Of a stretch of 28,571 nucleotides of DNA, positions 1,506 to 28,465 are shown piece after piece. Under the pieces are notes generated by a model. The model saw only the letters and a list, made by a program, of their open reading frames with translations, made no database searches and was not told where the DNA came from. How positions within the stretch are numbered: position 1 is the first letter of the stretch; every line of letters begins with the position of its first letter. The translations under genes were made by a program, and so were the position numbers. The DNA comes from a virus, in IMG/VR virus record IMGVR_UViG_3300022198_002129, positions 1 to 28,571 of that record; one strand, written 5' to 3'.

Positions 1506-3262
1506 TGGCTATTAACTTTCCAGACAGCCCAACAAACGGCCAAGAATTCACTTCTGGCGCAACCACATGGACATATGACGGAACCAAGTGGAACCTAAAA
1601 ACCACAACCGCTACAACAAACGACTCTATGCCAGTAGGGTCTATCATGTGGTTCGCAGGATCCGCAACTCCTACAGCATGGCTTCCCGCTGATGGTAGTG
1701 CAGTATCACGAACAACGTATGCTACACTCTTCGCTGTTATCGGTACGACTTATGGTGTGGGTGATGGTAGTACGACGTTTAACGTGCCTAGCGTGTCTGC
1801 TACGACGGGTGCATACTATATTAGGTATACTACTAGTATTGGTACGGTGACGACTACGAGCCTGTCTACGGCTCCTGTGGGGACGCTTATTGACTGGCCT
1901 ACAGCATCTTCTTTCCCGACGGGATGGTTAGAGGCGGATGGTAGTGCTGTTAGTCGAACATCGTATGCTGACTTGTTTAGTCTTATTGGGACTGATTATG
2001 GTGTTGGGGATGGTTCTTCTACGTTTAATCTTCCTAATTTTGTTAGTGCTGGCGCTCCGTTGAAGATTATTAAGGCTAGTTTGGGTGGTACGGTTGAGCC
2101 TAGTACGGTTGCTCATGCTTCTAGTCACGAGTTTGGTGGTAGTGATGTTGTGACTGTTGATTCTCGTCAGGTTGATTATTCTGCTGTTGGGTATCCTGCG
2201 TATCGTAATGTTATTATTAATGGTGCTATGAATGTTCATCAGCGTGGTACGAATGTTACGGGTATTACTGGTAATGGTTACTACACGGCTGATCGTTGGG
2301 TTAAATATCAAGATTCTTTAGGTACGTGGACACAAAGTATTGAAAATGATGCCCCTACTGGTTCTGGTTTTAAGAAATCTTTGAAAATGTTGTGTACGAC
2401 TGCTGACGCCGCTCTTTCTGCTAATGATTTTATTTTGTTACAGCAAAGCGTTGAAGGACAAAATATGCAACATTTTCTTAAAGGTACTTCTTCTGCTAAA
2501 AAGTTTGCTTTGTCGTTTTGGGTTAAGTCTAATGTGACTGGTACGTATATTTGTGAAGTAGAGGACGTTGATAATACTCGCAGGGTTAGTGCTTCTTATT
2601 CTGTTAATGCTAGTGGTACTTGGGAGAAAAAGACTATTCTGTTTCCCGCGGATACTACGGGCGCGTTTGATAATGATAATGCTCGTTCTTTTTCATTAAA
2701 TTTTTGGCTTGGTGCTGGTTCTACGTATACTAGCGGAACTCTTAGTACTTCTTGGGCGGCAACTAACGCGGCAAATCTTGCTGTTGGCCAAACAAACCTA
2801 GCAGCAGCAACAAATAATTATTGGCAGATTACTGGTGTACAGTTAGAACCTGAGGTTGTTACTCCTTTCGAGTTTGAGCCTTTTGAAACTACTTTTAGAA
2901 AGTGTCAAAGGTATTTTCAAAAATGTACACCACATTCTGAGACTACTTTTTCAAGTCTTGCTACTAACTCTAATATGGAACAAGGCATTTGCTGGCTTAC
3001 TGCTGGCGGCGATGCTGGTTTTGGGGGCGCTCAAAGATATAGTTTTGCTACAGAAATGCGGGCTTCGCCTATTATTGATGTCCGTGCTTGGACTACAGGA
3101 ACTGATAATGTTGCTGATTCGGCTACTTTTACTGTACACAGGCCGGGAGTTGGCGATTTTAATGCTACTTTTAGAAGCAGAAGCGCTACTGGTTTTGCAG
3201 TAACTACAGCCGTAACTGACAGAACTTTATTTTTCTTTTGGCGAGCAAGCGCTGAACTTTAA
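1505..3262 (+). CDS. Tail fibre with two phage tail-collar domains and a jelly-roll-like C-terminal module
   Basis: 585 residues. A strong Shine-Dalgarno (GGAGGTGAC) sits 5 nt before the ATG. Residues 42-97 and 123-178 are two copies of a tail-collar domain: PVG.I, GW/AWL, DGSAVSRT.YA.LF, then TTYGVGDGSTTFNVP. Residues about 204-215 repeat the SHE.GGSD element of the previous gene. From residue 234 comes NVIINGAMNVHQRGT, and near 455-480 YWQITGVQLEP...PFEF.PFE, the pattern of a carbohydrate-binding-like module widespread in phage fibres. It probably acts at the distal tail in host recognition. The first 230 bases use A/C-ending codons while the rest is T-ending, which suggests that the N-terminal part was acquired separately. 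Confidence 0.88.
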   Translation: MAINFPDSPTNGQEFTSGATTWTYDGTKWNLKTTTATTNDSMPVGSIMWFAGSATPTAWLPADGSAVSRTTYATLFAVIGTTYGVGDGSTTFNVPSVSATTGAYYIRYTTSIGTVTTTSLSTAPVGTLIDWPTASSFPTGWLEADGSAVSRTSYADLFSLIGTDYGVGDGSSTFNLPNFVSAGAPLKIIKASLGGTVEPSTVAHASSHEFGGSDVVTVDSRQVDYSAVGYPAYRNVIINGAMNVHQRGTNVTGITGNGYYTADRWVKYQDSLGTWTQSIENDAPTGSGFKKSLKMLCTTADAALSANDFILLQQSVEGQNMQHFLKGTSSAKKFALSFWVKSNVTGTYICEVEDVDNTRRVSASYSVNASGTWEKKTILFPADTTGAFDNDNARSFSLNFWLGAGSTYTSGTLSTSWAATNAANLAVGQTNLAAATNNYWQITGVQLEPEVVTPFEFEPFETTFRKCQRYFQKCTPHSETTFSSLATNSNMEQGICWLTAGGDAGFGGAQRYSFATEMRASPIIDVRAWTTGTDNVADSATFTVHRPGVGDFNATFRSRSATGFAVTTAVTDRTLFFFWRASAEL

Positions 3263-3273
3263 GGAGGTGTAGT

Positions 3274-3846
3274 ATGAGTGTTATCGGACATGGTGTAGAA
3301 ATTGTTACTAGTAGTACTCGACCAGCATCTCCTTTTGATGGTATGCAGATTTATGAGACTGATACTAGGAAGATGTTGGTTTATAATAGTTCTGCTTGGG
3401 TTGAGGTTAATGATCTTGATAATCTTGGTGCGGCTCCTGCTGCTATTCCTCGTGGTCTTATTGCAGAAACCAAAAAGACGGTGACACAAAATTTTACAAG
3501 TTCGTCGCCTGCTGACGTAACTGGATTGTCTCTAACATGGACGGCAGAAAGTAATCGCCTCTATCTACTCGCGCTAAATATGGTATGCGCTAAAGACTTT
3601 AATCCTGGCATTGGAAGCATTTCTATTACGGATGCCAGCAACAATGTCAAAGCGACATCGCTGCATACATCAACTAGCGCCTTTGTTTTTTTCTTCACCG
3701 TTTACCTTACAACGTACGAAACCGGCCTTAGTGGTTCGCAGACACGTAAAGTAAGGGTTGCAACTACTTCAAGTAATTTGGACGCTCCAACTGCAAGCGT
3801 AACACAACCGGCTACATTCATGGTTTTCGATATGGGGGTCGCATAA
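3274..3846 (+). CDS. Tail-fibre-associated protein
   Basis: 190 residues; AAGGAGGTG lies 6-7 nt before the ATG. The N-terminal 50 residues carry the module VTSSTRP..PFDGMQIYETDT...LVYNSSAWVEV, also seen in the 27665-28465 gene and in the gene cut by the right edge. The remaining about 130 residues are Ser/Thr-rich, beta-type sequence ending PATFMVFDMGVA, without a motif I recognise. Codon use changes near 3460 from T-ending to mixed, at about the border of the shared N-terminal module, which fits a common attachment module joined to a variable tip. Function as tail tip or fibre component is inferred from module and position. Confidence 0.7.
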   Translation: MSVIGHGVEIVTSSTRPASPFDGMQIYETDTRKMLVYNSSAWVEVNDLDNLGAAPAAIPRGLIAETKKTVTQNFTSSSPADVTGLSLTWTAESNRLYLLALNMVCAKDFNPGIGSISITDASNNVKATSLHTSTSAFVFFFTVYLTTYETGLSGSQTRKVRVATTSSNLDAPTASVTQPATFMVFDMGVA

Positions 3847-14303: not shown

Positions 14304-15071
14304 TTACTTACTACGCGCAACGATCTTAATGCCACGAGCGCCATACGAAACCATATCCGGCTTACCATTCGTGATAAACCAGTAACCATTACACCAACTA
14401 GGATACGTCGTAGTGCCCTGCAAGTATTCAGTCTGAGGAATGTTAAAGAAACCACCCAACTCGCCAACAATAAACGAACCACTAGGATCCCAACCCATAG
14501 CACAATGATGAGTGTGCGCTGTCAACACATGACACTTCTTAACCTCTGCGATAGCAAGAGGATTATTCAACGGGCTTTTAGAGTACGAGTCTGGATGCGC
14601 AATAAAATATCGTTCCTTATTGCTTGTGATATAACAATGATCCAGATTGCTGAAACGCAATTTGCATCCGTGACGAGGAACATCCTTAAATACTTCGGTC
14701 ATACTATCCACAAAAGACTCACGATACTCCGCAGCCTTAGTATACCGATAATCATGATTGCCACGCAAGAACACAATGTTACTAAAGTTAGCACAAAGAA
14801 TCTCCATCAGACTCTTCGCCTCAGCAACCTCCTTCTCAATACCAGCGCTCTTCTGTTTAGGATAATACGCGCTCAACGAGTCACCATTCAAGAAGTCGCC
14901 AGCGATGAGAAGATTCTTATAGTCAGCAGCCTCACTAAGAAACTCGTTAACAAGATCCGCATCATACAATGGCACATGCCAGTCAGCCGTCACGGCCCAA
15001 TCACCCTTCAACTCAAAGGGACGATCAAGCCCGAACTCAAACCTACTTTTATCCTTGGTATCAACCCGCAT
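14304..15071 (-). CDS. Calcineurin-like metallophosphoesterase
   Basis: 255 residues from the ATG at 15071, chosen because GGAGAG lies 7 nt upstream; an ATG five codons earlier lacks this. All metal-ligand motifs are visible: D30-W-H32, G58-D59, GNHD at 104-107, a His in IAHPDS near 160 and AHTHH near 180. The fold hydrolyses phosphomonoesters or diesters with two metal ions; the substrate cannot be read from the sequence (DNA ends, cyclic nucleotides or RNA are all possible). The gene overlaps the 3' end of the sigma-region-4 gene by 11 bp and precedes tRNA-Leu and nrdJ, so it is expressed with the replication genes. Confidence 0.85.
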   Translation of the reverse strand: MRVDTKDKSRFEFGLDRPFELKGDWAVTADWHVPLYDADLVNEFLSEAADYKNLLIAGDFLNGDSLSAYYPKQKSAGIEKEVAEAKSLMEILCANFSNIVFLRGNHDYRYTKAAEYRESFVDSMTEVFKDVPRHGCKLRFSNLDHCYITSNKERYFIAHPDSYSKSPLNNPLAIAEVKKCHVLTAHTHHCAMGWDPSGSFIVGELGGFFNIPQTEYLQGTTTYPSWCNGYWFITNGKPDMVSYGARGIKIVARSK

Positions 15072-15357
15072 CAAGAAACTCTCCATTCATAATATTAGTC
15101 AAAGCGTCAAGCGCATCGTTAAGACGATAATTAATCATCCGAGTGCTGACACCATCATTAAGTGCCTGATCTTGAATAGGCATACCGTTCACAAACACAT
15201 TCACAATCGTATAGTATAATACAGAATTATGCTTTTGTAATTCTTTTAACGCATATACAATATCAAGATAATAATCTGAGAATGTAGAATCCGGGTGCCG
15301 TTGCAGGCTATAATAGTTCCTCAGCAGATTCTCCACTATCTCCTTCTCGTACACCAT
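15061..15357 (-). CDS. Sigma-70 region 4-like protein (second half of a split sigma factor)
   Basis: 98 residues. Residues about 35-90 have the region-4 pattern: helical YALKELQKHNSVLYYTIVNVF, then a helix-turn-helix at QALNDGVSTRMINYRLNDAL, which in sigma factors binds the -35 box. No region 2 is present; that lies in the overlapping upstream gene. The start is an ATG preceded by GAGGAG at 7 nt, so translation can begin here independently although 50 bases overlap the upstream gene in the +1 frame. Precedent: SigO and RsoA of Bacillus subtilis divide regions 4 and 2 between two proteins. Alternatives are a lone HTH protein or a frameshifted single gene. Confidence 0.62.
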   Translation of the reverse strand: MVYEKEIVENLLRNYYSLQRHPDSTFSDYYLDIVYALKELQKHNSVLYYTIVNVFVNGMPIQDQALNDGVSTRMINYRLNDALDALTNIMNGEFLDAG

Positions 15358-15643
15358 CTAGCATCTCCTCATAACTTACTGAATGATTATGCCGCAACCG
15401 CTTAGTGAACCGGACCCAATCCTTCATACGATTATAAACAATTCTACTTACTACTTTAACATCCTCGTTTGTTTGTTTTTGTTTTAGGTTCCATACTTTG
15501 CGTCTCGTATCAGGAGAGCATAACCATAGTGAGATCATGCCCTCCTGATAGAGATCATCATACTCTGCTGCTTTACGGAATGTATAAGCGGCGGAGTGGA
15601 TAGCGCCTTTATACTCCCCGATAAACTCTTCGGGGTCCCACAT
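15308..15643 (-). CDS. Sigma-70 region 2-like protein (first half of a split sigma factor)
   Basis: 111 residues. Residues 5-40 read FIGEYKGAIHSAAYTFRK followed by EYDDLYQEGMISLWL, the region 2.1-2.2 signature (..A.DL.QEG.i.Lw) that contacts RNA polymerase beta-prime. VVSRIVYNRMKDWVRFTKRLR near 65-87 is the place of region 2.3-2.4, which binds the -10 element. It ends shortly after (EELL) without region 4, which is supplied by the next, overlapping gene. The start overlaps the SSB stop (TGATG) and has only a weak Shine-Dalgarno, suggesting coupled translation. It probably directs host polymerase to some phage promoters, if it works with its partner (inference). Confidence 0.65.
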   Translation of the reverse strand: MWDPEEFIGEYKGAIHSAAYTFRKAAEYDDLYQEGMISLWLCSPDTRRKVWNLKQKQTNEDVKVVSRIVYNRMKDWVRFTKRLRHNHSVSYEEMLDGVREGDSGESAEELL

Positions 15644-18914: not shown

Positions 18915-19263
18915 AATGAATCTTCCTATGGCACGGACGGCATACGGGAACACACTTCTCAATCTCTCTACGAAGAGACTCTGGAGAACGATTATACACA
19001 GCCTTTGACACGGTAAGATCCTTAGACTTGGGATCAAGGTGATGCAGGTCGATCAGCGAGGGATGCAGAATCTTACCACAACAATGACAAGGATTATACT
19101 TAGCCTCTGCTACAATACCCTTATTAATAATCGTGCGAGTGTTTGTCTTGTCAATACGGCATTGGCGGCACAGACTCTCATGAGTGCCGCGCTTCTCCTG
19201 AAAATAAAAGTCTTCTACCGACTTAACTTCCTTGCAATGCGTACATGTCTTATACTCAATCAC
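18904..19263 (-). CDS. HNH homing-type endonuclease
   Basis: 119 residues from a GTG at 19263, which has AGGAG 7 nt upstream and sits inside the end of the polymerase gene. Two zinc-knuckle pairs: CTHC and CRQC near residues 6-40, CHCC and CRPCH in the second half. The HNH core reads LIDLHHLDPKSKD....VPVCRPCHRKIH. It probably makes a double-strand cut at a specific site and may spread itself or its flanks by homing. It is directly behind a polymerase gene that is split in two, the classical company of such enzymes. Confidence 0.85.
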   Translation of the reverse strand: MIEYKTCTHCKEVKSVEDFYFQEKRGTHESLCRQCRIDKTNTRTIINKGIVAEAKYNPCHCCGKILHPSLIDLHHLDPKSKDLTVSKAVYNRSPESLRREIEKCVPVCRPCHRKIHYGD

Positions 19264-19996
19264 TATACGGCTCCTTGTCTGCCCAGTTAGTATACGATAC
19301 TTCGCAGTCCGTGTCAATACTAACGTATTCTTCTACGTTTTTATTCCCCATTAGTGTTGGGATTGTGTTAACTAGTGTTGGGATCTCGTTACGATCCGCG
19401 TCTAGGATGATCTCGTCATGCACAATATTTACTATATGTGTAGCATAATTGTCGTACAGGTACTTGTCTACTCGTACGACACTATCACGCATGAGGTCTG
19501 CTGCTGATCCTTGGATGAGCGCGTTGAGAGCCTTGTGGGCCTCTGTAACGTGCAGCCTACGCCCATACAAACTTTGAATATAACCGCGAGTATCCAAGGT
19601 TTCTGCGATACTCTGGTTAAGAAGGCTGATACCGGGACGAGTGTCATGATACGCCTTCAACAATCGCTTCGCTTCCTTAAATGATACTCCTAACTGTCGC
19701 ATGATAGTGGGTGTGCCACCACCATAGATGATACTAAAGTTGAGTGTCTTTCCTACTTGACGTTCCTCGTCGCTGATACCCGTGCGTCCGTACAAGCCTT
19801 GAGCGGTGATGAGGTGAGGGTCGGCTCCACGGTTGATCTCACTAGCCAGCGTAGTGTCGCCGATGGCTCTTGCAAGGTAGTATGCGAGCAGTCTAACTTC
19901 GATTGCTTTATAATCGAAGAATAAGAACGCATCCAGTTTCGGTACAAATGCACGTTTCACATCCTTCTGGCTTCTGGGAATATTCTGTACGTTCAT
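19256..19996 (-). CDS. polA (C-terminal part): DNA polymerase I family, C-terminal polymerase part (split gene)
   Basis: 246 residues carrying the palm and fingers of a PolA-type replicase. It begins MNVQNIPR, the second half of the motif TGRxSS..PNxQNIP. Motif A: DYKAIEVRLLAYYL with Asp28; O-helix (motif B): R79...K83...F87...Y91-G92; motif C: VHDE with Asp194. F87 is the equivalent of E. coli Phe762. The thumb and exonuclease are on a separate gene upstream, with a 63-residue ORF between. The start overlaps that ORF (ATGA) and has only a weak Shine-Dalgarno, so coupled translation is likely. It should polymerise only when associated with the N-terminal part. Confidence 0.9.
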   Translation of the reverse strand: MNVQNIPRSQKDVKRAFVPKLDAFLFFDYKAIEVRLLAYYLARAIGDTTLASEINRGADPHLITAQGLYGRTGISDEERQVGKTLNFSIIYGGGTPTIMRQLGVSFKEAKRLLKAYHDTRPGISLLNQSIAETLDTRGYIQSLYGRRLHVTEAHKALNALIQGSAADLMRDSVVRVDKYLYDNYATHIVNIVHDEIILDADRNEIPTLVNTIPTLMGNKNVEEYVSIDTDCEVSYTNWADKEPYSD

Positions 19997-20184
19997 GTTA
20001 CACCATAATATTTTAGTTTTACTAGGACCATGAATATCTGCATGGCTGAGTCAAACGAGTCTGCAAATACGGGCCAAGGATTCTCGATAGTGTCTAGCGT
20101 GTTCTCGCTAAGCATACTACAATAAAACCAGTTCCAACTACCATCATCTTCTTGTTCATTATAATAATCAAAGAGGGGCATCAT
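19993..20184 (-). CDS. 63-residue ORF inserted between the two polymerase halves
   Basis: Begins on the stop of the N-terminal polymerase gene (ATGA) and ends on the start of the C-terminal one (ATGA). Sequence: MMPLFDYYNEQEDDGSWNW, then an aromatic and acidic stretch, ending MVLVKLKYYGVT. It matches no part of PolA and no endonuclease motif that I know. It could be a subunit that bridges the polymerase halves, a remnant of the element that split the gene, or a filler that keeps ribosomes moving. The 4-base overlaps on both sides argue that it is translated. Confidence 0.6.
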   Translation of the reverse strand: MMPLFDYYNEQEDDGSWNWFYCSMLSENTLDTIENPWPVFADSFDSAMQIFMVLVKLKYYGVT

Positions 20185-21122
20185 GCTTCTGCCGCTCCGC
20201 TACTCATCCGTCCGGTACGAGTACCATGCTGACGAAAGTTAGGATGCAAGATACTATTCTTAGCCTCAGTATCAAGCGCATCAAAATATGTAGACTTGAT
20301 CTTATTAGCCTCGCGCAACTCTACAATCAGCCCAGCCAACTCGTCATCTACTTGCGATAGTGCGTCTTTGGAGGTAGAGGATACCACGAATCCTCGTTCT
20401 TGTAGCGCAGCGAGAACCTGCTGGTGTGATTGTGGGTTAAACTCTTTCCCAGCAAGTTCCCCAATACGAGACTTAAGTTTGTAAATCCGATCACCATACT
20501 CCTTACGTTTTCGTGTAACATACTCACGATCAACCTGCATACCTTGCGCTTCGATACGCAACAAGGATAAAGTCAACCGCTTCTCAATCTCATACAAAGG
20601 AAGCAGATCATTATGCAAACGCTTCGTAAAATCTGTGTAGAGTTGCAATGTAAACTCTGCGTCCTTTGCAGCATACGGCGCTAGAATCTCATTCGGAATG
20701 GGATAATAACCATCCTCCTTCTTCATCTTATTTTTACGCCGCCAAACCTTCAGTACCTCGTCCTCATCAGTAGACAGGCCAAGATACGAGGAGGCAAGAT
20801 ACTTTAGTCCTGTGGGCTGGTGCTCATCAATCAAGTGCGCCATGGCCTGAGTATCCTCAAACTTATCAACAAATACATGATAAGGAATACCAAGCCGCAT
20901 CAACTTCTGCATATCAAACTTCGCGTTGTGCATGATAATACGATCAGCCTTGCCAAGATCAATAGTAACATCGCTGATAATATCAAACCATTCTGCGTCA
21001 TGCAACTCGCGCTTGTCAAACACATACGTCTTGTGTGGCGTGGCGACACTAATCATGAACGCCTCGTCATCCCAAGCAACACCAGTAGTCTCAGTATCAA
21101 TTGCCAGTAGATCCAAAACCAT
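20181..21122 (-). CDS. polA (N-terminal part): DNA polymerase I family, N-terminal 3'-5' exonuclease and thumb part (split gene)
   Basis: 313 residues from the ATG at 21122, which overlaps the dUTPase end; GGGGAG is close upstream. Exonuclease motifs: D9-T-E11 (IDTETTG), HNAKFD at 65-70, and YAAKDAEFT near 150, so proofreading residues are intact. A thumb follows (YEIEKRLTLSLLRIEAQGMQ; NPQSHQQVLAALQERGF), then the start of the palm, TRTGRMSS at 301-308, where the chain ends after five more residues (GAAEA). Normal PolA continues directly with PNxQNIP; here that piece begins a separate gene 184 bp on. Both parts look intact in their motifs, so this is a split enzyme rather than a decayed gene. 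Confidence 0.9.
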   Translation of the reverse strand: MVLDLLAIDTETTGVAWDDEAFMISVATPHKTYVFDKRELHDAEWFDIISDVTIDLGKADRIIMHNAKFDMQKLMRLGIPYHVFVDKFEDTQAMAHLIDEHQPTGLKYLASSYLGLSTDEDEVLKVWRRKNKMKKEDGYYPIPNEILAPYAAKDAEFTLQLYTDFTKRLHNDLLPLYEIEKRLTLSLLRIEAQGMQVDREYVTRKRKEYGDRIYKLKSRIGELAGKEFNPQSHQQVLAALQERGFVVSSTSKDALSQVDDELAGLIVELREANKIKSTYFDALDTEAKNSILHPNFRQHGTRTGRMSSGAAEA

Positions 21123-21525
21123 TCTCCCCACGCTCGCCACCCCAAACCGTGCCGGGACTAAAATAATAATCATCAAGTCGGATAATCATAAGTTGGCAAA
21201 TGCGCATACCATCGTGAATACGAAACTCTTCATCACTAAAGTTTCCCAGCACAACCTTGATTGTATCAGAATATCCTGCATCAATCAAGCCGGGAGCGTT
21301 AAGAACAAACAAGCCACCATTCTTAGCCAAGCCAGAGCGGGACAGGATTAGACCAGCAAAGCCTTGTGGAATCTGCATACGAATACCAGTATCAACCGTG
21401 CCGCGCCCCCAAGCAGGAATAGTCACATTCTCAGCAGCAAACAAATCATAAGCAGCATCGTTAGGATACTTACGATAAGGAGCGTTAAGAATATCCCCAC
21501 TCTTATTTTCATAGTTGATTCGCAT
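21097..21525 (-). CDS. dut: dUTPase (dUTP diphosphatase)
   Basis: 142 residues, the usual length of the trimeric enzyme. All five motifs are present: DAAYDLFA, SRSGLA, GLIDAGYSDTIKV, RICQLMI and the C-terminal GENGFGSTG. Motif 3 has Asp where many enzymes have the second Gly of GYRG, a mild variation. It converts dUTP to dUMP, keeping uracil out of phage DNA and feeding thymidylate synthesis, in line with nrdJ in the same operon. Its start overlaps the previous stop (TGATG) and its end overlaps the polymerase start by 26 bp. Confidence 0.93.
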   Translation of the reverse strand: MRINYENKSGDILNAPYRKYPNDAAYDLFAAENVTIPAWGRGTVDTGIRMQIPQGFAGLILSRSGLAKNGGLFVLNAPGLIDAGYSDTIKVVLGNFSDEEFRIHDGMRICQLMIIRLDDYYFSPGTVWGGERGENGFGSTGN

Positions 21526-24420: not shown

Positions 24421-24572
24421 CAGAATCCTGGTTCCCACTTAACATCCTTATCATTAATATTACTATTATTCTTCTTTTTATATGTATATGAATACTTATT
24501 CTCTATGTATTCTCTATACTCTCTATCCCATTCTAGATACTCTTCATATGTATAAGGCTCATTATTCTTCAT
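24420..24572 (-). CDS. 50-residue Tyr/Glu-rich protein (unrecognised)
   Basis: The ATG at 24572 has GGAGGG 5 nt upstream and lies about 20 nt after the predicted start point of the promoter at 24599-24627; an in-frame ATG at 24608 would fall inside that promoter's spacer and is less likely. Product: MKNNEPYTYEEYLEWDREYR followed by NKYSYTYKKKNNSN and a WEPGF end. The base composition is clearly more AT-rich than in neighbouring genes. First gene of its transcription unit if the promoter is right. Confidence 0.62.
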   Translation of the reverse strand: MKNNEPYTYEEYLEWDREYREYIENKYSYTYKKKNNSNINDKDVKWEPGF

Positions 24573-24598
24573 AAGATCCCTCCATGATTCATACTTGT

Positions 24599-24627
24599 AT
24601 CTTACCATAACTATTCTTCCTTGTCAA
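24599..24627 (-). promoter_or_regulatory. Minus-strand sigma-70-type promoter
   Basis: TTGACA (24627-24622), 17-bp spacer, TAAGAT (24604-24599) preceded by TGG, an extended -10. It would start transcription near 24592, leaving a short leader with GGAGGG and the ATG at 24572. Paired regulatory boxes abut the -35 on its upstream side. Confidence 0.65.
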
Positions 24628-24647
24628 GTTACGATTGTGTTAAGATT
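24628..24647 (-). promoter_or_regulatory. Paired 9-bp boxes at 11-bp period next to the -35 box
   Basis: On the plus strand GTTACGATT-GT-GTTAAGATT. Read in promoter direction, two AATCKTAAC boxes stand directly before TTGACA, as at 27007-27026. One helical turn between boxes suggests a dimeric activator or repressor binding to one face of the DNA. It fills the gap between tRNA-Gln and the promoter. Confidence 0.55.
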
Positions 24648-24648
24648 A

Positions 24649-24719
24649 CTAGGGGACTAGGACTCGAACCTAGATTCTTGGAACCAAAACCCAATGTCCT
24701 ACCATTAGACGATCCCCTA
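24649..24719 (-). tRNA. tRNA-Gln (anticodon UUG)
   Basis: A 71-nt cloverleaf: acceptor stem TAGGGGA/TCCCCTA fully paired, D-arm region CGTCTAATGGTAGGACA, anticodon loop TTTTGGT giving UUG, T-arm CTAGGTTCGAGTCCTAG, discriminator G. CCA is not encoded. It reads CAA. Only one base separates it from the next tRNA. Confidence 0.94.
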
Positions 24720-24720
24720 A

Positions 24721-25473: not shown

Positions 25474-25667
25474 TAGAACCACCCCACAATATCATCATGG
25501 TACTTAGGATCAGTCATCATCTTATCCACCTTCTCATCCAAATCTGCTACCAACTCAAAGTAATCAGACTCACGTTCTACTAGAGCCTCAAAGTTATCAA
25601 ACTCGTCCCACTCTTCGCCAGTAAAATCGTTCATAGTAACCCACACTCCCTTATAGTAGACTTCCAT
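25473..25667 (-). CDS. 64-residue acidic protein (unrecognised)
   Basis: AAAGG lies 4 nt before the ATG; a promoter at 25735-25763 gives a leader of about 60 nt. About 30 percent Asp/Glu against five Lys/Arg: MEVYYKGVWVTMNDFTGEEW then DEFDNFEALVERESDYF. Probably the first gene of an operon with the two genes downstream and the tRNAs. Confidence 0.62.
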   Translation of the reverse strand: MEVYYKGVWVTMNDFTGEEWDEFDNFEALVERESDYFELVADLDEKVDKMMTDPKYHDDIVGWF

Positions 25668-25715
25668 TTTACCTTTCCGGTTTCCGGCAAACTCTAAGAT
25701 ACCTATACCTAAGGT

Positions 25716-25799
25716 TTACCCTGCGATATCTAACAGTATAGCACCGATGCCGAACAAAATCAAGGGACCAATAACTACATAAAACAGGACCTCAAGCAT
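25716..25799 (-). CDS. Possible 27-residue single-helix membrane peptide
   Basis: The frame from the ATG at 25799, which overlaps the end of the upstream gene, encodes MLEVLFYVVIGPLILFGIGA followed by ILLDIAG, a clean membrane helix. The Shine-Dalgarno is weak (GAGCGG), and a promoter lies inside the same DNA, so the hydrophobic reading could be incidental. Overlap-type start and absence of any other gene in the gap speak for it. Confidence 0.4.
   Translation of the reverse strand: MLEVLFYVVIGPLILFGIGAILLDIAG
25735..25763 (-). promoter_or_regulatory. Minus-strand extended -10 promoter
   Basis: TTGATT (25763-25758), 17-bp spacer, TATACT (25740-25735) preceded by TGC. It would drive the acidic genes at 25667 and below. 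No paired boxes next to it. Confidence 0.55.
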
Positions 25800-26621: not shown

Positions 26622-26945
26622 CTAGTCGTCAAGCCTACCACATCGCGCAGCATCATGCAACACGCGACAGATAGCCGCATAAAGGCCAGCGAACGCTAAC
26701 ACAGCCATAACACCGTCGATACCGTTATGGCTGAACGCATCGGCCAAGTCTAGGCCCAACTCGTCCGCGGCATCCTCACAGTCCGAACGATTACTAGCCA
26801 CAAGATCCCACGCGCGGCTATAATAAATAACATCCTCCGAACTATCCGCAACCTCCCACGCCATATCCTGCGCATCCTCTAACGTCTCACACTCTCCGAT
26901 AATCTGATCGGCATAATCCTTAGCGATTGTATAAAGATTACTCAC
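26622..26945 (-). CDS. 107-residue acidic protein with a hydrophobic C-terminal helix (first early gene)
   Basis: GTG start at 26945 with AAGGAGG 7 nt upstream, and a promoter just before it. Residues 1-75 are acidic and helical (ADQIIGECETLEDAQDMAWE; NRSDCEDAADELGLDLADA). Residues about 76-98 (GIDGVMAVLAFAGLYAAICRVL) form a hydrophobic helix, perhaps a membrane anchor. As the first gene after the divergent control region it is probably expressed at once on infection. Family not recognised. Confidence 0.65.
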   Translation of the reverse strand: MSNLYTIAKDYADQIIGECETLEDAQDMAWEVADSSEDVIYYSRAWDLVASNRSDCEDAADELGLDLADAFSHNGIDGVMAVLAFAGLYAAICRVLHDAARCGRLDD

Positions 26946-26977: not shown

Positions 26978-27006
26978 ACCATAGCCGAACCCGGCCAGCC
27001 TGTCAA
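26978..27006 (-). promoter_or_regulatory. Early minus-strand promoter
   Basis: TTGACA (27006-27001), 17-bp spacer, TATGGT (26983-26978). Transcription would start near 26971 and reach AAGGAGG and the GTG at 26945. Paired boxes abut the -35 exactly as at 24628-24647. Confidence 0.65.
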
Positions 27007-27026
27007 GTTAAGATTATGTAACGATG
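27007..27026 (-). promoter_or_regulatory. Paired 9-bp boxes next to the early promoter
   Basis: On the plus strand GTTAAGATT-AT-GTAACGATG, directly upstream of TTGACA on the minus strand. Including the -35, 23 of 28 positions agree with the element at 24622-24649. Confidence 0.55.
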
Positions 27027-27165
27027 CCAACGACTAGCCAAGCATAAATAAATACAGACGCGCGCGCGAAGATAACTAAACACACACAGATAAACAAAGT
27101 ATAAACGTACAAACAATAACAAACACTAATAATAGCCCTATTTGGCTATAACAAAGGGAAATACT

Positions 27166-27192
27166 ATAGTTATAGTAATATACTATAACTAT
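27166..27192. repeat. 12-bp perfect inverted repeat, 3-bp loop
   Basis: ATAGTTATAGTA - ATA - TACTATAACTAT. A related CTATAGTTAT copy recurs near 27222. Could be a protein-binding palindrome or a cruciform in the control region. Confidence 0.8.
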
Positions 27193-27271
27193 TATCTTCC
27201 TACAATAAAAGATATTACCTATAGTTATTCTACTAATACTAGTAGTGTTAGTAAGTCTAGTAAGAATACTA

Positions 27272-27315
27272 AGCCTATTATATATATTATAATATATATA
27301 TATACTATATAGGCT
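27272..27315. repeat. AT-rich imperfect palindrome, AGCCTAT arms
   Basis: AGCCTAT (27272-27278) and ATAGGCT (27309-27315) enclose an almost pure TA stretch that can itself pair. The whole 44 bp can extrude as a long hairpin. Confidence 0.75.
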
Positions 27316-27423
27316 GGCTGATAGTAACATCTACAAGGCATAGGCATTATATATATAATAAACCCCGCACCAAAAAAAACCCTGCCACAAAAACTAGCAA
27401 GGCTATACCCCCTAGTATAAAAA

Positions 27424-27451
27424 GATTTTACAAACTTTGCTTTGTAAAATC
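27424..27451 (-). terminator. AT-stem hairpin, possible minus-strand terminator
   Basis: GATTTTACAAA - CTTTGC - TTTGTAAAATC, 11-bp perfect stem. Read on the minus strand it is followed by TTTTT, the order expected of an intrinsic terminator; on the plus strand no T-run follows. The AT-rich stem is weak, and no minus-strand gene is known to run into it. It could protect the early region from antisense transcription. Confidence 0.4.
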
Positions 27452-27557
27452 CGTATACGCATACCCATACCCCCGTTATGACCCACCCACATATATATAA
27501 TTACACTATATATATTTTTTGAACATTATGATTTTTGGCTTGTTTACGTGTATATAT

Positions 27558-27577
27558 GTTAAGGTTGTGTTAAGGTT
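27558..27577 (+). promoter_or_regulatory. Perfect paired boxes before the plus-strand tail operon
   Basis: GTTAAGGTT-GT-GTTAAGGTT, two identical 9-mers at 11-bp period, the same pattern as the elements at 24628 and 27007. It lies 87 bp before the GTG of the tail gene and directly after TATATAT (27551-27557), a possible -10 for the plus strand, so a bound protein would cover the start point. No convincing -35 is seen. Confidence 0.5.
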
Positions 27578-27664: not shown

Positions 27665-28465
27665 GTGTCTTACGCGAATATGGATGGTGTGCCGACTCAG
27701 ACTGAGGGTGTTAGTGAGATTCTTGCGTCGGATTGGAATGCTTATGTCCGGGATAATTTTGATTCGATTAAGTCGGGTCATATTGTGTGTACTTCTTCTA
27801 CTCGTCCTACGGGTATTCAAGAGGGTACGATGGTGTATGAGACGGATACGAATCTTATTTATGTTTATACTGGTTCTGATTGGAAGCAGAATAATTTGAC
27901 TCCGGTGGGGATGATTAGTCCTTTTGCTGGTTCTTCTTCGCCTGAGGGTTGGCTTATTTGTGATGGTGCGGCTGTTAGTCGTTCGACGTATGCTGTTTTG
28001 TTTGGTTTGATTAGTACGACGTATGGTATTGGTGATGGGTCTACGACGTTTAATGTGCCTGATTTGCGTGGTCGTGCGGCTATTGGTGCGGGTACTGGTC
28101 CTGGTTTGTCGGCGCGGGCGCTTGCTGCGAATGTTGGCTCTGAGACGCATACGTTAGATGTTACGCAGATTCCTAATCATAAGCATTATACTAGTGGTAC
28201 GACTGGGGACGATTCGCCGGACCATACGCATAATATTACTTTGACGCAGGATAGTGTTCTTCAGCGTGGTACTGGTGTGGTTTTTGATCGTGTTCGTCAG
28301 GCCGGTTCTCAGACTACGGCGGGGGCTAATCAGCGCCATCAGCACAGTTTTGGAGCGTTTTCTAATACTAGCATTTATAATAATAGTAATGCTGCACAAA
28401 CGGTGAATCAGCCGCATAATAATATACAGCCTAGTCTTGTGTTGAATTATATCATTAAGGCGTGA
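27665..28465 (+). CDS. Tail-collar (microcystin-dependent-type) fibre protein
   Basis: 266 residues from the GTG at 27665, chosen for the CCGGAGGGGGG ribosome-binding site and because coding character starts here; the upstream in-frame stretch is low-complexity. Order: VPTQTEGVSEILASDWNAY N-terminal element (1-32); STRP...GTMVYETDTNLIYVYTGSDW module (44-72); tail-collar domain TPVGMISPFAGSSSPEGWLI followed by CDG.AVSRSTYA.LF...YGIGDGSTTFNVPDLRGR (about 80-138); His-rich C-terminal part with ETHTLDVTQIPNHKH, DHTHNI and the typical end NNIQPSLVLNYIIKA. The collar domain is close to both copies in the 1505-3262 gene. First gene of the plus-strand tail operon in the window. Confidence 0.88.
   Translation: MSYANMDGVPTQTEGVSEILASDWNAYVRDNFDSIKSGHIVCTSSTRPTGIQEGTMVYETDTNLIYVYTGSDWKQNNLTPVGMISPFAGSSSPEGWLICDGAAVSRSTYAVLFGLISTTYGIGDGSTTFNVPDLRGRAAIGAGTGPGLSARALAANVGSETHTLDVTQIPNHKHYTSGTTGDDSPDHTHNITLTQDSVLQRGTGVVFDRVRQAGSQTTAGANQRHQHSFGAFSNTSIYNNSNAAQTVNQPHNNIQPSLVLNYIIKA

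Follow-up and report, generated by a model that had tools for sequence, protein, structure and literature searches.

The window analysed here, the whole 28,571-nt stretch of IMG/VR record IMGVR_UViG_3300022198_002129, is a fragment of a podovirus-like phage of ~45 kb; the related record G002 is 44.6 kb long. On its minus strand, a paired-box element (site 1) lies between a tRNA-Gln gene and a short leftward operon (Table 1). Read on the minus strand from 24647, site 1 is AATCTTAAC AC AATCGTAAC TTGACA AGGAAGAATAGTTATGG TAAGAT, confirming an earlier sequence-only reading of two boxes fused to a TTGACA promoter with a 17-bp spacer and an extended -10. The promoter is of the sigma-70 type (TTGACA-17-TANNNT), and its spacer ends in the extended -10 TGG. 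From the promoter position, transcription is predicted to start near 24592, relative to which the box pair spans -55 to -36; the boxes are upstream of the -35 as that reading had stated, and its span of -36 to -56 is corrected accordingly. The longer ORF from 24608 contains the -10 and begins upstream of the predicted transcription start, so the usable ATG is that at 24572, which is preceded by GGAGGG and is the only start from which homology to the 50-aa protein begins in relatives, supporting the gene start proposed earlier. The product of the second operon gene, with its AT-hook-like tail, was considered as the binder and rejected; its predicted beta-beta-alpha-beta-beta domain gave no informative structural match.

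Table 1 Features of the three box sites and their surroundings in the window
Feature	Position	Strand	Remarks
tRNA-Gln (ttg)	24648..24720	-	3' end directly adjoins the distal box of site 1
Distal box, site 1	24639..24647	-	AATCTTAAC; -55 to -47
Proximal box, site 1	24628..24636	-	AATCGTAAC; -44 to -36; adjoins the -35
-35 hexamer, site-1 promoter	24622..24627	-	TTGACA
Extended -10, site-1 promoter	24599..24607	-	TGG TAAGAT; -10 hexamer itself 24604-24599
First operon gene, 50 aa	24420..24572	-	ATG at 24572, not 24608, from promoter position and conservation in relatives
Second operon gene, ~92 aa	24145..24423	-	AT-hook-like KRGRP tail and small alpha/beta domain; adjoins site 1 in relatives too
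Distal box, site 2	27018..27026	-	CATCGTTAC
Proximal box, site 2	27007..27015	-	AATCTTAAC; adjoins the -35
Site-2 promoter	26978..27006	-	TTGACA-17-TATGGT; precedes the first leftward gene (GTG at 26945)
TTGGCT	27535..27540	+	conserved; spaced exactly 17 bp ahead of the site-3 GTTAA(G/A) in the 8 late regions compared
Site 3, paired boxes	27558..27577	+	GTTAAGGTT-GT-GTTAAGGTT; ahead of the rightward tail genes
First late gene after site 3, tail collar/fiber protein	27665..28465	+	GTG start with GGAGGGGGG

The major capsid protein of G002 has 13 matches among phage records, 11 of them from Arthrobacter, Microbacterium and Cellulosimicrobium phages and two unassigned (Manatee Spring), and the endolysin matches from records with named hosts come mainly from Actinomyces and Bifidobacterium phages. 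These capsid and endolysin relatives suggest that the host is likely, though not proven, to be an actinobacterium. No match was returned by a near DNA search among known phages or by comparison of the internal virion protein and the Cas4-like exonuclease with known phages, and a helicase scan of the genome collection gave only a remote Rhodovulum match and no host. WhiB, tried as a host marker, was rejected, being absent from 32 records.

With up to 3 mismatches, the box-pair pattern occurs three times in the window (24628-24647, 27007-27026 and 27558-27577) against 0.17 expected from shuffles, and none of the shuffled windows reached three matches. The repeats per site number two (CTTAACAC/CGTAACTT); a literature search on the string TTAACTTGACA found no relevant paper. 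On the minus strand between 22000 and 28571, three TTGACA-17-TANNNT matches score 10/12, two of which carry boxes; the third, a strong leftward promoter at 26319-26291, is without them. The site-1 and site-2 promoters look early. Site 3 is kept in G002, G003, G005, G008, G009 and others, and the L008 homologue of the tail collar/fiber protein has an ATG start at the same place. The late region around site 3 yielded no convincing sigma-70 promoter, and separate phage region-2 and region-4 proteins are predicted and may serve the late promoter. Between the early and late genes (27040-27540) lie ~500 bp of non-coding, A/T-rich DNA containing TATA-rich palindromes.

In many relatives, divergent ones included, site 1 follows the 3' end of the last tRNA, where two TNAC half-sites exactly 11 bp apart adjoin TTGAC and the other letters differ. 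Examples on the promoter strand are CTTAACATAATCGTAAC-TTGACA (G002), CCTAACAAAACTTTTAC-TTGACT (G005), CCTTACAATATCCTTAC-TTGACA (G010, G012) and TTTACAAACAATTTAC-TTGACA (L058, L093). Across 57 loci (890 kb, near-duplicate loci included), the T.AC pair adjoining TTGAC was found nine times at period 11 against 0-2 times at each other period tested. A strict pair scan of the window family yielded 15 distinct pairs at period 11 and one at period 10, with none at periods 8, 9 and 12-14 and none in the reversed-sequence control. The loose core NTNAC, scanned over whole loci with coding DNA included, had no preferred period; the period-11 signal appears only with the longer motif or beside promoters. 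The half-site consensus is AAYCTTWAC, with the core TNAC at exactly 11 bp; in the tallies, the core T, W and A are each present in 38/38 half-sites and the C in 35/38, and the first base is G or T in 34/38. The 11-bp period, from which the sequence-only reading placed both boxes on one helical face, dominates in the family scans, which supports that placement, and the further copies it had proposed to look for exist in the window, with site 1 itself kept in relatives.

Some arrays in relatives are flipped or displaced upstream by one helical turn. Three boxes go with a degenerate -35 (TAGCAT) in L030, and with the opposite orientation and no TTGACA in L068; L074 has flipped arrays immediately before TTGACA, and in L057 a pair lies 13 bp ahead of TTGACT. 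In L006 and L063 the box pair at site 1 is lost, with a perfect TTGACA kept. Our impression, gained from about a dozen promoters without statistics, is that weak -35s tend to accompany more boxes, which is the pattern an activator would predict. In L031/L033, a 12-tRNA array (2758-3677) lies directly upstream of the site-1 boxes. L008 and L006 carry an ArdC-like anti-restriction gene (phrog_7245 in L008) at the place of 25667-25792, where the window is without it.

Moreover, the boxes are present on promoters of unrelated phages. A degenerate IMG/VR scan for the pair fused to TGTCAA gave 18 stretches at period 11 against 6 at the control period 12, and in most of the 18 a TANNNT follows at 16-18 bp. 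Among the 47 near-consensus promoters of G037 (L173, L174), an unrelated 20.8-kb phage contig, 38 carry, no more than 70 bp upstream, a period-11 TWAC pair in one or the other orientation, and TWAC pairs in the whole contig number 69 at period 11 against 1-4 at each other period. The pair positions are discrete relative to the -35 hexamer: -15/-4 (24 promoters), displaced upstream by one turn (4), and flipped at -31/-20 (5). Several of the box-bearing G037 promoters are near-perfect (TTGACA-17-TATAAT). The G037 exonuclease resembles Enterococcus phage proteins, suggesting a likely Firmicutes host, a guess made from one protein. Several copies of the box pair are also found in G047 and others, and stretches of isolated Lactococcus, Staphylococcus and Enterococcus phages suggested by short matches had no period-11 excess. 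In another unrelated phage contig of 58.6 kb (L009, 7596-7645), four tandem 11-bp boxes adjoin TGTCAA with no clear -10 after them. A separate phage group (L133, L134, L139, L140, L142, L144, L146, L147, L149) has in common GTTACAGTTTTGTAACAGTGATTGACA-17-TANNNT, which corresponds to flipped boxes before TTGACA. It is possible, and is proposed only tentatively, that an 11-bp-phased TNAC pair against the -35 represents a general phage promoter type, common to unrelated phages of different bacterial phyla, that connects all or most of the early promoters of a phage with a single conserved host regulator, or with a protein class still unknown.

The half-site tallies, the TNAC core and the 11-bp period match those of MtrA and Pho box sites, suggesting that the element is read by a regulator of the OmpR/PhoB type; direct half-sites at an 11-bp period, as in the sites of that family, dominate both in the window family and in G037. 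MtrA sites in Streptomyces, Mycobacterium and Corynebacterium, (G/T)T(G/A)ACC-N5-GT(G/T)ACN (PMC5650626), likewise consist of two direct TNAC half-sites at 11 bp and can lie near the -35, with an A/T-biased version in the lower-GC Corynebacterium (PMC5650626, PMC13189361). The MtrA core (G/T)T(N)AC is present in both halves of the phage element (PMC5650626), which differs from MtrA sites in having mostly T instead of G as its first base, often A instead of C just after the core, and flipped arrays as well. The Pho boxes of SphR and PhoB resemble the phage boxes in their 8-bp repeats with a 3-bp linker, giving 11 bp, and in their CTTAAC/CTTTAC core; the cyanobacterial Pho box bound by SphR is CTTAACCT with a 3-bp linker (PMC1906773). 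However, SphR sites consist of three or more tandem CTTAACCT repeats against two at the window sites, and the host here is not a cyanobacterium by present evidence. A precedent for a host response regulator on phage promoters is the binding of host PhoB to cyanophage promoters, a system in which predicted boxes are unreliable without binding tests (PMC10976474).

We give about an even chance to the element being the site of a dimeric, head-to-tail winged-helix response regulator of the OmpR/PhoB family taken from the host, with an MtrA-type protein as the leading candidate in an actinobacterial host. Such a regulator would occupy a pair of AAYCTTWAC half-sites spaced by one helical turn. On the two leftward promoters, the downstream one of its subunits would lie next to the -35 in contact with sigma region 4, and would thereby increase early transcription or tie it to the host state. 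At site 3, the same regulator may influence late transcription, possibly as a brake. The sequence-only reading had left an activator or a repressor open; the box position at the early promoters favours activation. Its proposal of a regulator site holds in that the element is phased, promoter-fused, repeated and conserved, and is refined to a TNAC core at exactly 11 bp, in arrays that may be inverted or shifted by a turn and that are also found on promoters of unrelated phages. A Trans_reg_C domain is encoded in none of the 32 + 21 phage records (53), a weak absence since most are fragments, and was detected in 10 of 14 genomes used as a control; protein similarities between the window family and other box-bearing phages comprise only enzymes, such as polymerase, ribonucleotide reductase and HNH nuclease. 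A host protein would therefore be the simplest supplier, and we infer its identity as well as its host origin.

Several observations argue against a host regulator of this kind. Flipped arrays beside TTGACA, as in L074 and G037, are unusual where one face must meet sigma; the near-perfect box-bearing G037 promoters should need no activator; and the isolated capsid relatives Shocker, Jasmine and DS1 have no boxes adjoining TTGAC. That the boxes recur in apparent Firmicutes phages speaks against MtrA alone. In addition, an unrecognised binder could be encoded among the many phage genes without assigned function. With a host response regulator as the binder, these phages would sense the physiological state of the host right at the early promoters, a behaviour so far shown for cyanophages under phosphate stress (PMC10976474). 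A single regulator on ~80% of the near-consensus G037 promoters would mean a strong host dependence and offer a defined test target, and the motif is a simple handle for locating early promoters in uncultivated phages.

A rather doubtful alternative is that a phage-encoded protein of an unrecognised family, a repressor or timing protein, uses the boxes as operators to control the early and late genes jointly. In line with this, a single motif stands at two early promoters and in the late region, the boxes are present on most G037 promoters in the manner of a phage-wide regulon, and their orientation is flexible; site 3 also lies just downstream of the conserved TTGGCT-N17, a place where a bound protein could prevent initiation. 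Among known phages, SPbeta has an element that recurs at many of its promoters and is bound by the repressor MrpR (PMC10516654). That element was rejected as the same motif: it is a different, 15-bp motif of a prophage with a recombinase-like repressor, and no phased TNAC pair is described in the accessible part of the source (PMC10516654). The boxes of the early promoters lie wholly upstream of the -35 and not over it, no regulator candidate common to the window family and G037 was found, and a non-exhaustive look noticed no site excess outside promoters, all of which count against a phage repressor.

The elements are unlikely to be UP elements, to which the RNA polymerase alpha subunits bind through their C-terminal domains. 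In the UP element of sigma-70 promoters, a pair of subsites spaced by one turn lies at about -57 to -38, and the phage boxes share this arrangement in their position (-55 to -36), 11-bp spacing and A/T-rich half-sites. In contrast to A-tract subsites, they have a fixed T-W-A-C core with a conserved C (35/38 half-sites), and their arrays are flipped, shifted by a turn or tripled.

The sequence-only reading had treated the small phage proteins and the region-4 protein as candidates for a binding test. It is improbable that the region-4-like protein of the phage (15061-15357) binds the boxes, either by itself or together with the region-2 protein: it is conserved in the family and has a predicted sigma-4 fold, but a sigma-4 domain recognises a single -35 element and would not be expected to recognise tandem repeats of 11 bp, the protein is still present in L006 and L063, which are without site-1 boxes, and it has no counterpart in G037. 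For small phage proteins too, no candidate is common to the box-bearing phage groups. Chance similarity or hitchhiking conservation, to which the imperfection of two copies across relatives and the box-free relatives would point, is very unlikely given the period controls, with the threefold occurrence in the window, the period-11 excess in divergent relatives and the IMG/VR control all against it.

Two further arrangements in the window concern genes away from the boxes. The sigma-like regions 2 and 4 are encoded by two overlapping separate ORFs (15061-15643) that are kept in ~27-34 related loci, and the predicted model of region 4 resembles the -35-binding domains of M. tuberculosis sigma factors. 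The DNA polymerase is split (19256-21176): its exonuclease and polymerase parts are separated by a 63-aa ORF.
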